Source: Methylobacterium sp.
GTDB taxonomy: Bacteria > Pseudomonadota > Alphaproteobacteria > Rhizobiales > Beijerinckiaceae
DNA: 50,130 bases
Reading direction: 5' to 3'
NCBI RefSeq assembly: GCF_019750675.1
Contig: NZ_JAIEOF010000293.1
Span: forward strand, 1 to 50,130
Part shown: positions 3,408 to 49,027 of the stretch, in pieces
Numbering within the stretch: position 1 is the first letter of the stretch
How the letters are laid out: each line of letters starts with the position of its first letter
Program-made: the position numbers and the translations under genes
Notes under the pieces: model-generated
Seen by the model: the letters and a program-made list of their open reading frames with translations, nothing else
Database searches by the model: none
What the model was told of the DNA's origin: nothing

Positions 3408-5231
3408 TCAGAGACCGGCGGCTGCCAGCATGGCCGAGGCGCCCTGCTCCGCCCCGTCGGCTCCGTGCCGCATGAAGGCGAAGAGCTCGCGGCCGGTGCC
3501 GAAGGCCGGGGGCGGGGCCGTGGCGTCGTCGCGGCGCGCCCACTCGGCCGCGTCGACCAGGGCCTCCAGGGTCCCCTCCTCGGCGCTGAGGCGAACGACG
3601 TCGCCGTCGCGCAGCTTCGCCAGGGGACCACCACCGAGGGCCTCGGGGCTGAGGTGGATGGCGGCCGGGACCTTGCCGGAGGCGCCCGACATGCGGCCGT
3701 CGGTGACGAGGGCGACGCGGAAGCCGCGATCCTGCAGCACGCCGAGTTGCGGCGTCAGCTTGTGGAGTTCCGGCATCCCGTTGGCCCGCGGCCCCTGGAA
3801 GCGTACCACCACCACCACGTCGCGCTCCAGTTCGCCCGCCTTGAAGGCCGCCATGACGTCGTCCTGGTCGTCGAAGACGCGGGCCGGCGCTTCGACCGTC
3901 CAGCGCGCGGGATCGACAGCGCTGGTCTTGAAGGTGGCGCGCCCGAGATTGCCCTTGACCAGGCGCATGCCGCCATCGGGCTGGAAGGCGTTGGCGGGGG
4001 TGCGCAGGATGCTCTCGTCGTGCGAGCGCTCGGGAGCGTCCTCGAAGACGAGCGCGTCGTCGATCAGCTTCGGGTCGCGGGCGTGGTCGCGCAGGCGCGT
4101 GCCCGCCACGGTGAGGATGTCGTCGTGGAGCAGGCCGGCATCGATCAGGCTGGCGATGACGTAGGACATGCCGCCGGCCGCGTGGAAGTGGTTCACGTCG
4201 CCCGAGCCGTTCGGATAGACCTTGGCCACCTGGGGCACGACGGCCGAGAGCCGGTCGAAATCCGCCCAGTCGAGGACGATGCCGGCCGCCCGCGCGATGG
4301 CCGGCAGGTGGATGGCGTGGTTGGTGGAGCCGCCCGTGGCCAGGAGCCCGACGACCGCGTTCACGATCGCCTTCTCGTCGACGCAGTGGCCCAGCGGCCG
4401 GTAGTCGTTGCCGTTGGCGCCGATCTCGGACAGGCGGTGCACCGCCGCGCGGGTCACGGCCTGGCGCAGCTTCGTGCCCGGATTGATGAAGGAGGCGCCG
4501 GGCATGTGCAGGCCCATCACGTCCATCATCATCTGGTTGGAGTTGGCGGTGCCGTAGAAGGTGCAGGTGCCGGCCCCGTGATAGGAGGCGGATTCCGATT
4601 CCAGAAGCTCGTCGCGCCCGACCTTGCCCTCGGCATAGAGCTGGCGGATGCGCTGCTTCTCCTTGTTGGCCAGCCCCGAGGGCATCGGGCCCGCCGGGAT
4701 CAGGATCATCGGCAGGTGCCCGAAGCGCAGCGCGCCGATGAGCAGGCCCGGCACGATCTTGTCGCAGATGCCGAGGAGCGCCGCGCCGTCGAACATGCCG
4801 TGGCTGAGGGCGACCGCCGTGGAGAGCGCGATGGTGTCGCGGGAGAACAGCGACAACTCCATGCCGCGCTGGCCTTGCGTGACGCCGTCGCACATCGCCG
4901 GCACGCCGCCCGCCACCTGCGCGGTGGCGCCGACCTCGCGGGCGAACAGCTTCATCTGCTCGGGGTAGCGGCCGTAGGGCTGGTGCGCCGAGAGCATGTC
5001 GTTGTAGGCGGTGACGATGGCCATGTTCATGGCCCGGCCGGACTTGATCACGGCCTTGTCCTCGCCGGACGCCGCGAAGCCGTGCGCGAGGTTTCCGCAA
5101 TTCAGCATCGGGCGATGGACGCCGGATTCCTTCTCGCGGGCGATCAGGTCGAGATAGGCCTTTCGCGTCCGCGCCGAGCGCTCGACGATGCGAGCCGTGA
5201 CGGCGGCGATCTCGGGGTGAAGCGCGCTCAT
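3408..5231 (-). CDS. edd: 6-phosphogluconate dehydratase
   Basis: First committed enzyme of the Entner-Doudoroff pathway, converting 6-phosphogluconate to KDPG; 607 residues, the usual length. It belongs to the IlvD/Edd family of iron-sulfur dehydratases. Visible family signatures are [51 protein letters not shown] and [18 protein letters not shown]; the conserved Cys residues in the first three supply the cluster ligands. Identification as Edd rather than IlvD rests on overall sequence character and the adjoining eda. The ATG at 5231 is preceded by GAGGAG, nine bases away. First gene of the edd-eda pair; zwf and pgl are not in the window. Confidence 0.96.
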
Positions 5232-35437: not shown

Positions 35438-36412
35438 ATGGCCCATACGCATGCCAAACTCATCATCATCGGCTCCGGTCCCGCCGGCTACACCGCGGCG
35501 ATCTACGCGGCCCGCGCCATGGTGGAGCCGCTGATGATCTCGGGCTTCCAGCCCGGCGGCCAGCTCATGATAACGACCGACGTCGAGAACTATCCGGGCT
35601 TCGCCGAGGCGATTCAGGGGCCCTGGCTGATGGAGCAGATGCGCGCCCAGGCCGAGCATGTCGGCACCAAGATCGTGTCCGAGTACATCACCAAGGTCGA
35701 TTTTCAGGTCCGGCCGTTCCGGCTCGAGGCCGATTCCGGCGAGACCTACTCGGCCGACGCGGTCATCATCGCCACCGGCGCCCAGGCGAAGTGGCTGGGC
35801 CTGCCGTCCGAAGCCCGGTTCCAGGGCTTCGGCGTCTCCGCCTGCGCCACCTGCGACGGCTTCTTCTTCCGGGGCAAGGAGGTGGTCGTGGTGGGCGGCG
35901 GCAACACCGCCGTGGAGGAGGCGCTCTACCTCGCCAACCTCGCCGCCAAGGTGATCGTCGTCCATCGCCGGGGCGAGTTCCGGGCCGAGCGGATCCTGCA
36001 GGAGCGCCTGTTCAAGCATCCCAACGTCGAGGTGGTCTGGCACCACGCGGTGGAGGAGATCTGCGGCGGCGAGAAGCCCCCGTCCGTGACCCATGTCCGC
36101 CTGAAGGACACCCGCACCGGCGAGATCACCGAGCGCAAGACCGACGGCGTCTTCATCGCCATCGGGCACCAGCCCGCCACCGCGATCTTCGAGGGCCAGC
36201 TCGCCATGCGCGACGGCGGCTACATCGAGACCGCGCCGGGCACCACCCACACGGCGATCCCGGGCGTCTACGCGGCGGGCGACGTCACCGACGACGTCTA
36301 CCGTCAGGCGATCACCGCCGCCGGCATGGGGTGCATGGCTGCCCTCGACGCGGAGAAATACCTCGCCGCCCTCGAAGTCGGCGAAACGCCGCAGCAAGCG
36401 GCCGCCGAATAG
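35438..36412 (+). CDS. trxB: Thioredoxin reductase
   Basis: A 324-residue FAD/NADPH enzyme that reduces thioredoxin. It has the FAD motif GSGPAGYTAAIYAARA (12-27), the redox pair C136-A-T-C139 (SACATCDGFFF), the NADPH Rossmann motif VVVGGGNTAVEEALYLA, and the C-terminal GVYAAGDVTDDVYRQAITAA. It has the usual length. AAGGAGG precedes the ATG strongly. lsrB lies downstream on the same strand, a conserved neighbour pair in Rhizobiales. Its TAG stop is within the first of three tandem 17-bp repeats. Confidence 0.98.
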   Translation: MAHTHAKLIIIGSGPAGYTAAIYAARAMVEPLMISGFQPGGQLMITTDVENYPGFAEAIQGPWLMEQMRAQAEHVGTKIVSEYITKVDFQVRPFRLEADSGETYSADAVIIATGAQAKWLGLPSEARFQGFGVSACATCDGFFFRGKEVVVVGGGNTAVEEALYLANLAAKVIVVHRRGEFRAERILQERLFKHPNVEVVWHHAVEEICGGEKPPSVTHVRLKDTRTGEITERKTDGVFIAIGHQPATAIFEGQLAMRDGGYIETAPGTTHTAIPGVYAAGDVTDDVYRQAITAAGMGCMAALDAEKYLAALEVGETPQQAAAE

Positions 36413-36462
36413 CAAGAATCCGGCGGATGCAAGAATCCTACGGATGCAAGAATCCGGCGGAT
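36412..36462. repeat. Three tandem copies of a 17-bp unit after trxB
   Basis: Units at 36412-36428, 36429-36445 and 36446-36462 read GCAAGAATCCGGCGGAT, with the middle copy changed to ...CCTACGGAT. The first base is the last of the trxB stop codon. There is no inverted symmetry. Confidence 0.85.
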
Positions 36463-36679
36463 GAACGCGGCCTGCGCCTTGCGCGGGACGTCAAGACAAT
36501 CGCAAGGTCGTTCCCCTAACCTAAGCGCTGGCGGCATGAGCCGTCGGCGCTTGCCGCATGACTCTTCCTCCGATTCCCCACCGATGCGCGGGTGACCGGA
36601 GCCGGGTCCGCCGGGACCTGGCCGCGACGTTCATGGTGCGGGGCCAATCGGCGTCGGGTTGCGTACGGGAGTGGTCGCC

Positions 36680-37570
36680 TTGGACTGGGACAAGATCCGC
36701 ATCTTCCTCAACGTCGCGGAGGCCGGCAGCTTCACCCGCGCCGGCGACGACATCGGCCTGAGCCAGTCGGCGGTGAGCCGGCAGATCAGCGCCCTCGAGC
36801 GCGAACTGAAGGCGCCGCTGTTCCACCGCCATGCCCGCGGCCTGATCCTGACCGAGCAGGGCGACCTCCTGTTCCGCGCGGCGCGCGACATGAAGCTGCG
36901 GCTGGAGAACACCAAGGCGCGCCTCGTCGAGACCAGCGAGCGGCCGACCGGCGACCTCAAGGTGACGACCACGGTGGGTCTCGGCACGGCCTGGCTCGCC
37001 CAGCGGATCGCCGAATTCCTCGACCTCTACCCGGATGTCCGCGTCGAGCTCATCCTCACCAACGAGGAGCTCGATCTCGCCATGCGCGAGGCGGACGTGG
37101 CCATCCGGATGCGGCGCCCGGCCCAGCCGGACCTGATCCAGCGCCGCCTGTTCACCGTGCACTACCACGCCTTCGCGTCGCAGGATTACGTGAAGCGCTT
37201 CGGCGAGCCGAAATCGATCGCCGACCTCGACAACCACCGCCTCGTCTCGTTCGGCGGCAACGAGCCGTCCTACCTGCTGGCCACGCACTGGCTCTCGACG
37301 GTGGGCCGCGAGGGCCAGGAGCGCCGGACGATCCATTTCACGGTCAACAACATCACCGCCCTGCAGCAGGCCATCGACACCGGCGCCGGCATCGGCATCC
37401 TGCCCGACTACGCGGCGGAGGGTCAGACCGGGCTCGTGCAGGTCATGCGCGAGACCGAGATGCCCCACATGGAGAGCTATCTCGTCTACGCCGAGGAGAT
37501 GCGCACCGTCGCCCGCGTGCAGGCGTTCCGCGACTTCCTCGTCGCCAAGGCCCAGCGCTGGACCTACTGA
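36680..37570 (+). CDS. lsrB: LysR-family regulator LsrB/VtlR
   Basis: A 296-residue LysR regulator. The N terminus DWDKIRIFLNVAEAGSFTRA and the helix-turn-helix LSQSAVSRQISALERELKAP are followed by HRHARGLILTEQG and DLKVTTTVGLGTAWL. This closely matches my knowledge of LsrB of Sinorhizobium and VtlR of Brucella, which act in oxidative-stress and cell-envelope regulation and in control of small RNAs. Adjacency to trxB supports this. The start is TTG 36680, eight bases after GGGAG; a TTG and a GTG 12-21 bases upstream are alternatives. The protein contains no cysteine, unlike the redox-sensing LsrB proteins as I recall them. Confidence 0.9.
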   Translation: MDWDKIRIFLNVAEAGSFTRAGDDIGLSQSAVSRQISALERELKAPLFHRHARGLILTEQGDLLFRAARDMKLRLENTKARLVETSERPTGDLKVTTTVGLGTAWLAQRIAEFLDLYPDVRVELILTNEELDLAMREADVAIRMRRPAQPDLIQRRLFTVHYHAFASQDYVKRFGEPKSIADLDNHRLVSFGGNEPSYLLATHWLSTVGREGQERRTIHFTVNNITALQQAIDTGAGIGILPDYAAEGQTGLVQVMRETEMPHMESYLVYAEEMRTVARVQAFRDFLVAKAQRWTY

Positions 37571-37623: not shown

Positions 37624-38580
37624 TCAGACGAACAGGCGCTCCTTCTCCAGCCCCTTGTAGAGGCCGGCGACCTGCTCGCCGTAGCCGTTGTAGATCAGCG
37701 TCGGCACGCGCTGGTCGGTGCCGAGCACCCGCTCCGTCGCCTGGCTCCAGCGCGGATGCGACACCGCCGGGTTGACGTTGGCCCAGAAGCCGTACTCGGC
37801 GGCCTGCAGCCCTTCCCAGAAGGTCTTCGGCCGCTCGGCCACGAACGAGATCTTGGTGATCGATTTCACCGACTTGAAGCCGTACTTCCAGGGCACCACG
37901 AGGCGGATCGGCGCGCCGAACTGATTGGCGAGGGGCTTGCCGTAGACGCCGGTGGCGACGAAGGCGAGGTCGTTGGCCGCCTCCTCCAGGGTCAGGCCCT
38001 CGGTGTAGGGCCAGGGATACAGGAACGACTTCTGCCCCGGCGCCATCGCGCGGTCGAGGAAGGTCTGCATCTGGATGTATTTCGCGCCCGCGGTGGGCTT
38101 GGCCAGGGCCACGAGCTTCGCGAGCGGGAAGCCGGTCCAGGGCACCGACATCGACCAGGCCTCGACGCAGCGGTGCCGGTAGAGGCGCTCCTCCAGGGGC
38201 ATCTTGCGGATGAGGTCGTCGATCCCGAGGGTCATCGGCTTCTCGACGAGACCGTCGATCGCCACCGTCCAGGGCCGGGTCTTCAGGGCGTTGGCGGCCG
38301 GAAGGACCGATTTCGAGGTGCCGTACTCATAGAAGTTGTTGTAGTCGGCGCTGAACTTCTCCGGCGTCAGCGGGCGGTCGAGGGTATAGGCCTCGTTGCG
38401 CTTGGCCGGGTAGAGATCGGCGGTGGGGTCGGAGGCCGCCAGAGCGCGCTCCGTCCCGACGAGGGAGGCCGCCGCGAGGCCGGCCGCGCCGCCGAGCAGG
38501 CGTCGCCGGTCGAGGAAGACGCTCTCCGGCGTCGCGAGATGTTCGGGCATCTCCCATGCCCGGTTTCGCCTGATATGCAT
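37624..38580 (-). CDS. msrP: Methionine sulfoxide reductase catalytic subunit MsrP
   Basis: A 318-residue periplasmic molybdenum enzyme (formerly YedY) that repairs oxidised methionine in envelope proteins. A Tat signal is visible (DRRRLLGGAAGLAAASLVG, residues 24-42). The molybdenum-ligand cysteine is C138 in YRHRCVEAWSMSVPWTGFPL. Other family parts are YEYGTSKS and YPWPYTEGLT. ATG 38580 is preceded by GGGAGGG at six bases; the longer frame upstream is unlike the family. The heme-membrane partner MsrQ is not next to it. The gene is convergent with lsrB. Confidence 0.94.
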   Translation of the reverse strand: MHIRRNRAWEMPEHLATPESVFLDRRRLLGGAAGLAAASLVGTERALAASDPTADLYPAKRNEAYTLDRPLTPEKFSADYNNFYEYGTSKSVLPAANALKTRPWTVAIDGLVEKPMTLGIDDLIRKMPLEERLYRHRCVEAWSMSVPWTGFPLAKLVALAKPTAGAKYIQMQTFLDRAMAPGQKSFLYPWPYTEGLTLEEAANDLAFVATGVYGKPLANQFGAPIRLVVPWKYGFKSVKSITKISFVAERPKTFWEGLQAAEYGFWANVNPAVSHPRWSQATERVLGTDQRVPTLIYNGYGEQVAGLYKGLEKERLFV

Positions 38581-38729
38581 GTCGGTCCCTCCCTGCGGCG
38601 CGGATCGCTGCGCGCCGGCCTGTTGCCAGGACATTTCGCCCTCTGACATCGGCCGGACGCGGCAGGCGCGCAAGCCGTCGCGATGTCACCCTTCGCCGGC
38701 GGACCGCCGAAGGTTACGGGACCCGGACA

Positions 38730-47965: not shown

Positions 47966-49027
47966 ATGACCCGACGACTGGCACCGATCGCCCTCACCCT
48001 CGGCGATCCCGCCGGGATCGGCCCGGAACTCGCCCTGATGGCGTGGCTTAGGCGCGATGCCGGGCCCGGCCTCCCGACCTTCTTCCTCATCGGCGATCCC
48101 GACTTCATCGAGCGCCGCGCCAGCGCCATGAACCTGCAGGTCCCGGTCGCGGATGTCGGCCCGGACCTCGCCGAGGAGGTCTTTCCCCGCGCCCTGCCGG
48201 TGATGCCGCTGCCCAGCGGCATGCGGGTCGACGCCGAGCCCGGCCGGCCGGACTCGGCCTCCGCCGGGGCGATCCTCGAATCGATCACCGCCGGGGTGGA
48301 CCTCGTCACGCGCGGCGTCGCCGCCGCTTTGGTGACCAACCCGATCGCCAAGTACGTCCTGACCCAGGTGGGCTTCGCCCATCCGGGCCACACCGAGTTC
48401 CTCGCCGCCCTCGCGGTGGCGCCCGGCGAGACGCCGCCGCTCCCCGTGATGCTGCTGTGGAGCGAGACCCTGTCGGTGGTGCCGGTGACCATCCACGTGG
48501 CCCTGCGCCGCGTGCCAGACCTCCTGACCCAGGACCTCGTGGTGCGCACGGCCCGCATCGTCGCCCACGACCTGCGCCATCGCTTCGGCCTGGAGCGCCC
48601 CCGCCTCGTCCTGTCGGGACTCAACCCGCATGCGGGCGAGAACGGCACGATGGGCAGCGAGGACCGCGACGTGCTGGAGCCGGCGGTGATGCAGTTGCAG
48701 GGGGAAGGCATCGACATCCGGGGGCCGCTGCCCGCCGACACCCTGTTCCACGAACGCGCCCGCGCGACCTACGACGTGGCCCTGACGCCGACCCACGACC
48801 AGGCGCTGATCCCGATCAAGACCATCGCGTTCGACGACGGCGTCAACGTCACCCTGGGCCTGCCCTTCATCCGGACCTCGCCCGACCACGGCACCGCCTT
48901 CGACATCGCCGGCCGGGGCATCGCCCGGCCCGACAGCCTGATGGCCGCCCTGCGGCTCGCCGCCCGCCTCGCCAAGGGGTCGAGCCTCGCCAAGGGCACC
49001 CACCTGCGCGAAGGGGCCGGCGCGTGA
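47966..49027 (+). CDS. pdxA: 4-hydroxythreonine-4-phosphate dehydrogenase
   Basis: A 353-residue NAD-dependent enzyme of the DXP-dependent vitamin B6 pathway. Visible features: [17 protein letters not shown] at the start, metal-binding His residues in [23 protein letters not shown] and [12 protein letters not shown]. Length is slightly above the usual 330. It starts 34 bases after lptD and its stop overlaps the rsmA start (GTGA), giving the order lptD-pdxA-rsmA. Confidence 0.96.

Follow-up and report, generated by a model that had tools for sequence, protein, structure and literature searches.

The closest described system is LsrB/VtlR of Agrobacterium tumefaciens (Atu2186, structure 9HH1), a LysR-type regulator that was read as a thiol switch in a 2025 structural paper (PMC11975290). 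According to that paper, the protein carries four cysteines, each reversibly thiol-modifiable in vitro; the C273S substitution alone increased sensitivity to H2O2 and left paraquat and ampicillin sensitivity unchanged, the single substitutions C144S, C236S and C244S left function intact, and paired or larger sets of cysteine substitutions resembled a deletion (PMC11975290). The same paper compared three species and found C144 and C273 conserved (with three cysteines in S. meliloti and two in B. abortus), tied redox sensing by LsrB to its cysteines, citing Tang 2017 for S. meliloti, and described LsrB as unique to Rhizobiales and its gene as sharing an operon with trxB (PMC11975290). The trxB-vtlR gene order has been described as well conserved in Alphaproteobacteria, with abcR1 and abcR2 directly 3' of vtlR in A. 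tumefaciens and S. meliloti (PMC7486931). Binding and activation of the abcR1 promoter by S. meliloti LsrB have been published, an LsrB box (GCAT-N3-TG-N3-T) has been placed at -61 to -49 of abcR1, and in S. meliloti both LsrB and RpoH1 have been noted to seem constitutively active (PMC8844928). In Mesorhizobium, LsrB was reported to make two-hybrid contact with MsrA and MsrB proteins and was named a HypT orthologue (PMC13272141). The synteny of lsrB with trxB and with AbcR is already in print; its extent in lineages whose LsrB is free of cysteine was not seen in these papers.

We compared these systems with an lsrB-like gene in a 50,130-nucleotide stretch of Methylobacterium sp. DNA (hereafter, the window). 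The relevant features, in window coordinates, are:

35438 to 36412, plus strand: trxB, thioredoxin-disulfide reductase (TIGR01292), the conserved neighbour upstream of lsrB
36413 to 36679, plus strand: trxB-lsrB intergenic gap of 267 nt, with no conserved operator recognised
36680 to 37570, plus strand: lsrB/vtlR orthologue, a LysR-type regulator of 296 residues with no cysteine and a TTG start (alternative starts TTG 36659 and GTG 36671)
37097 to 37099, plus strand: codon of V140, the equivalent of A. tumefaciens C144 in the alignment with 9HH1
37484 to 37486, plus strand: codon of V269, the equivalent of A. tumefaciens C273 in the same alignment
37624 to 38673, minus strand: msrP, protein-methionine-sulfoxide reductase catalytic subunit (NF003767), the convergent neighbour downstream of lsrB

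Translation from TTG 36680 to the stop, which ends at 37570, gave 296 residues without a cysteine, as the original prediction had claimed, and neither in-frame upstream start (TTG 36659, GTG 36671) adds one. The trxB neighbour it had named is also present (TIGR01292, 412.6 bits against a cut-off of 343.45), 267 nt 5' of lsrB on the same strand, and its statement that redox sensing by LsrB has been attributed to cysteines agrees with the published account (PMC11975290). On the other side, msrP (NF003767, 430.8 bits against a cut-off of 207) lies convergent to lsrB, 53 nt from its end. The Pfam domains HTH_1 (PF00126) and LysR_substrate (PF03466) together span the full length of the regulator, for which 9HH1 was the top solved relative over residues 1-296 (phmmer E 8.7e-109; next match 5.1e-31). 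All 26 paralogues in the window genome are at most 38% identical to it (best E 1.6e-31), and of the 58 genomes that gave a match at E<=1e-60, 57 had a single copy and the other had two. The window gene is orthologous to Agrobacterium LsrB. At 99% identity, loci from Methylobacterium sp. Leaf465 and from M. goesingense put the window within the genus Methylobacterium or close to it.

The two proteins are about 54% identical over their full length and have the same fold, and in A. tumefaciens, as in the window, trxB lies directly upstream on the same strand (PMC7486931; our Agrobacterium locus L136). However, Agrobacterium C144, C236, C244 and C273, in an alignment read by eye, correspond without gaps to V140, I232, I240 and V269 of the window protein, and whereas A. 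tumefaciens has AbcR1/2 downstream, the window has msrP at 53 nt and no AbcR-type sRNA was found in it; that spacing leaves no room there for one. A predicted model of the window protein (pLDDT 88, pTM 0.65), used together with a fold search for fold confirmation only, superposed its regulatory domain on 9HH1 with a TM score of 0.94 by target length and an rmsd of 1.7. Residues 140 and 269 fall in beta strands of the model, where the residues seen at these positions (mostly Val, Ile, Ala and Cys) would be small, buried side chains. Second to 9HH1 among solved structures, in the profile comparison as well as the fold search, came members of the CrgA/AphB branch (about 28% and 24-25% identity), regulators from other bacteria with targets other than those of LsrB.

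LsrB was present in 58 of 61 relatives (E<=1e-60), in 370 of 397 genomes of the order (E<=1e-70) and in 141 of 240 genomes of a class-wide draw (E<=1e-60; three of the 141 from the window's family). LsrB was missing, at E<=1e-70, from six genomes that belong to a single genus of the order (f32 g38), which looks like a loss in that lineage. For the census of cysteines, 284 loci with an LsrB-like match, own paralogues included, were reduced to 187 rows by leaving out sequences with less than 44% identity, a span below 270 residues, an internal stop, or more than 93% position-by-position identity to a kept row; class-level rows were counted as orthologues by score and synteny only. The original prediction had treated the Cys-free copy as an oddity and had named an alignment across homologues that could overturn this view; that alignment did so, as 100 of the 187 deduplicated Alphaproteobacteria homologues had no cysteine at all, 87 had at least one somewhere, and the Rhizobiaceae-type cysteines were the exception. 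Position 140 was occupied by V in 129 rows, I in 29 and C in 19, and position 269 by V in 150, A in 15 and C in 15. Cysteines at both positions were found in only 10 of 187 rows, so the C144/C273 pair was not treated as defining LsrB. Cysteine at 232 (Agrobacterium C236) was found in 29 rows and at 240 in two. Outside the order, as classified by the tool, 32 of 50 rows were free of cysteine.

Being Cys-free is the usual state of LsrB, and the window copy is thus ordinary. The gene was found in 36 genus-mates and its sequence read in 29, of which 28 had no cysteine (the remaining one has a cysteine at 236 and none at the four positions), implying that the absence of cysteine is a stable trait. 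Among the 80 best matches to the query, a set that leans towards the window's relatives, 28 loci were Cys-free. The rows from Methylobacterium, Methylorubrum, Microvirga, Bosea, Chelatococcus, Roseibium and Pleomorphomonas were free of cysteine, with the exception of L083, a metagenome-assembled genome (MAG) labelled Methylobacterium, which has two. Three genomes, L083, L086 and L102 (MAGs labelled Methylobacterium, or Rhizobium sp. Q54), have an LsrB unlike that of the labelled genera and are probably misnamed. At the cysteine frequency of the window, 2.5 cysteines are expected per 296 residues and none would occur with a probability of about 0.08, so zero cysteines is not rare in itself; 2 of the 28 window ORFs of at least 200 residues, chosen by codon-position GC, had none. 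The second Cys-free ORF lies at 47966-49027 (plus strand, 353 residues).

The trxB neighbour had also been taken as a pointer to a redox link. Among the 180 rows that had 1300 nt or more of upstream sequence, trxB was adjacent on the same strand in 163: in 141 of 156 rows without C140 or C269 versus 22 of 24 rows with one, and in 41 of 49 rows outside the order (tool's classification). The neighbourhood is therefore independent of the cysteines, also outside the order, implying that the trxB link predates them, and because Cys-free LsrB is general, a trxB neighbour does not imply a thiol mechanism. Of the 162 loci whose downstream sequence reached 1400 nt or more, 60 had a convergent msrP 3' of lsrB, in 57 cases no further than 1.5 kb away. 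This arrangement occurs both in and outside the order, and in Hoeflea L108 and Nitratireductor L105 an sRNA sits between the two genes.

Rfam ar15 (the AbcR family) was matched directly 3' of lsrB in Agrobacterium (two copies), Hoeflea, Nitratireductor, Mesorhizobium and the Cys-free Pleomorphomonas. One Rfam scan found no ar15 match at E 0.05 in eight of nine other loci, and a weak suhB match, of the same clan as ar15, in Bosea L074. A broader ar15-like model, built from six sequences (Agrobacterium, Hoeflea, Nitratireductor, Mesorhizobium, Pleomorphomonas), gave 49 matches at E<=0.1 over the 80 best-matching loci. Excluding training sequences, 40 of 43 matches lay on the same strand within 1 kb 3' of lsrB (chance share 8.8%), in a positional test that treated related loci as independent and admitted matches up to E 0.1. 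A match so placed was present at 44 of the 80 best-matching loci, 16 of the 28 Cys-free ones included; with this distribution, an AbcR-type sRNA was not treated as defining LsrB. All three Microvirga loci had a match 3' of lsrB, none of nine Bradyrhizobium loci did, and outside the order only L181 and L187 of 56 loci matched the model, both weakly. Predicted AbcR/ar15-type genes 3' of lsrB (L066-L068, L069, L070, L073, L074, L076, L077, L081, L090, L109, L118, L120, L127) reach well beyond Rhizobiaceae; in an Rfam scan that covered all but nine, only L090 passes the ar15 gathering score. At L066, an Rfam SorX match (3686-3753, 34.6 bits, gathering score 46.6) overlaps the ar15-like match, and SorX and AbcR-type genes may be related.

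We searched for the LsrB box anywhere from -140 to +10 of 51 matches (E<=1e-5, some from close relatives) at 45 loci picked from those with ar15-like matches. The box was exact upstream of 25 of the 51 matches and present with at most one mismatch upstream of 42, versus means of 0.4 and 8.4 (largest 2 and 16) in shuffles that keep base composition but not dinucleotides. Exact boxes were positioned between -58 and -76, 15 of the 25 at -61 or -62. Among the 22 rows with a Cys-free LsrB, the box was exact in eight (four of them at -61 or -62), not exact in 14, and present with at most one mismatch in 16. In Microvirga and Bosea no box was found even at one mismatch, implying that the operator drifted there or that the sRNA is run differently. 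A predicted AbcR-type gene is present 3' of many Cys-free lsrB genes in the order, often with a box near the published position.

In the window's own genus, no ar15-type match was found in the window or at 29 genus-mate loci. Rfam ar15 was absent from 37 genus genomes in a search of 61 genomes whose stricter filters would lose weak members, and when 112 first-look candidates per genome were scored with the broader model, the window's own genome gave none and 18 genus-mates gave one weak match (E 0.009). The strict LsrB box had no match in the window's own genome and an exact match in 6 of 37 genus genomes (control pattern, 1 of 37), and the window itself contained one match at three mismatches versus 2.44 expected. 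No conserved operator was recognised in the trxB-lsrB gap when 19 gaps from Methylobacteriaceae and near families were aligned and the last 240 columns viewed; only the start region formed a conserved block. Other groups are also without the sRNA, Bradyrhizobium among them, and the family-mate Microvirga has a match; for Methylobacterium, loss and divergence beyond detection are indistinguishable. A limited literature search for AbcR1 together with Methylobacterium returned nothing. Since the sRNA was not found in the genus and the strict box is absent from the window's own genome, conservation elsewhere is no proof of the same function here.

Taken together, we consider it likely that the window gene is an ordinary LsrB/VtlR that descends from an ancestral LsrB without C144 and C273, already linked to trxB, and that it responds to a non-thiol input, likely a metabolite. 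The original prediction had offered two outcomes for this copy, that it senses differently or is a constitutive activator. With no cysteine in its sequence, the protein can have no thiol switch of its own, though a partner protein might relay such a signal, and a constitutive activator gained no direct support. A Cys-free LsrB would work as LysR-type oligomers usually do, with the non-thiol input acting on its regulatory domain; the likeliest such input would be a small metabolite in the pocket between the lobes; by analogy, the window LsrB is probably gated by a small ligand because this is the general LysR mechanism. We think it unlikely, if conceivable, that Cys-free LsrB is instead a constitutive activator without sensory input, controlled only through its own level. 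Both the seemingly constitutive activity in S. meliloti (PMC8844928) and the intact function of the single C144S, C236S and C244S variants in Agrobacterium (PMC11975290) agree with such an activator, but its regulatory domain might be expected to drift more. The mean frequency of the top residue was 0.63 in the regulatory domain, about that of the linker (0.61), and 0.84 in the DNA-binding domain, and invariant columns across 188 rows include W105, Y170 and G237, although assembly alone could account for conservation of the regulatory domain.

OxyR shares the LysR-type architecture with the window LsrB, but the window protein, having no cysteine, lacks those of the C199/C208 type. The window's own genome encodes an OxyR-like protein on another contig (L303; 250.5 bits to NF008361, which we take to be the OxyR family, below its cut-off of 329). 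This protein carries a cysteine pair, nine residues apart and within an NCLRDQ context, that presumably is the C199/C208 motif. Thiol-based peroxide sensing in this organism would fall to the OxyR-like protein rather than to LsrB. A search for OxyR by DNA pattern gave one match, as did the control, with no LysR-type ORF recognised by eye around it, and was superseded by the NCBIfam family search.

The reverse history, in which LsrB was ancestrally a thiol sensor, Methylobacterium lost the cysteines and the window copy is degenerate or rewired, appears very unlikely from the tree of 188 rows (FastTree, midpoint rooting, the four cysteine columns masked, states by parsimony). The root state was no cysteine, C140 and C269 changed six times each, outside the order C269 was found in 0 of 50 rows and C140 in only three, and the C144/C273 pair is missing from Methylobacterium, Microvirga, Bosea and Chelatococcus. 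The main cysteine clade comprised 16 rows (support 99) from Agrobacterium, Hoeflea, Mesorhizobium, Nitratireductor, Aquibium, Roseitalea, Aureimonas, Jiella and relatives. Nine of the ten rows with both cysteines fell inside this clade (Rhizobiaceae, Phyllobacteriaceae, Aurantimonadaceae, Roseitalea); outside it were L088, an unclassified Hyphomicrobiales MAG with both, four rows with C140 alone (L196, L247, L269, L274) and three with C269 alone (L053, L128, L255). In favour of the reverse history, the cysteines vary inside the clade: residue 269 is Ala in most Mesorhizobium and in Roseitalea, and residue 140 is Ala in Aurantimonadaceae. These alanines are read as losses, although C144 was perhaps never gained in Aurantimonadaceae (the node implying loss at 140 has a support of 57 in the unmasked tree). 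Ala at the C273 position with C144 kept was seen in Mesorhizobium (four of five) and relatives (L130, L133, L135, L137, L204, L206-L213). C232 arises separately, for example in Bradyrhizobium and Pseudolabrys (29 of 188 rows, 10 changes), and given these repeated changes and the 87 of 187 rows with at least one cysteine, some lineages could use other thiols. The distribution suggests, from sequence comparison, that the redox cysteines belong mainly to one branch of LsrB, and the cysteine switch looks like a late addition there.

HypT (YjiE) is a LysR-type regulator of the oxidant response that is switched by oxidation of methionines 123, 206 and 230, all three of them present in the E. coli sequence. 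MsrP works in the periplasm. Least probable of all is a window LsrB that senses oxidants by methionine oxidation in the manner of HypT, with trxB and msrP as repair neighbours: the HypT-type switch was rejected because its three methionines are replaced by F113, L199 and N224 (28.6% identity over 259 columns), the LsrB profile matched 5ydw, which we take to be a HypT chain, at 3.9e-15, far below 9HH1 (7.5e-153) and CrgA (6.4e-50), a periplasmic MsrP could not repair a cytoplasmic regulator, and M135, though Met in 175 of 188 rows, is kept also in the Cys-bearing Agrobacterium LsrB. The frequent Met at position 135, the convergent msrP at 60 of 162 loci and the contacts with MsrA and MsrB of Mesorhizobium LsrB, named the HypT orthologue in that work (PMC13272141), are the observations in its favour.

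Returning to the ordinary, trxB-linked LsrB that we prefer, its ancestor would have had no cysteine at the two Agrobacterium positions and the trxB link already in place, and the lineage that comprises Rhizobiaceae, Phyllobacteriaceae, Aurantimonadaceae and Roseitalea would have gained the C144/C273 pair afterwards. We give roughly even chances to a broader proposal, that the redox-sensing LsrB cysteines were grafted late, in one lineage, onto an older regulator of non-thiol type. The deep partners of this regulator would be trxB and, within the order, an AbcR-type sRNA whose operator is fixed; the Agrobacterium and Sinorhizobium systems would then be derived, and Methylobacterium LsrB would have outlived its sRNA partner. 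We know of no experiment on a Cys-free LsrB, and none surfaced in a small literature search.

The occurrence of LsrB beside trxB also outside the order (tool's classification) differs from the statement that it is unique to Rhizobiales (PMC11975290). What is of interest here is that the thiol switch appears derived, while neither the synteny with trxB nor, in the order, the placement of the sRNA depends on it. Cysteines limited mainly to one branch, together with an older trxB link, point to an ancestral signal for LsrB, and Cys-free species offer natural controls for how much of LsrB function needs thiols. If the broader proposal is true, Methylobacterium would be a natural system in which LsrB acts without cysteines or AbcR.
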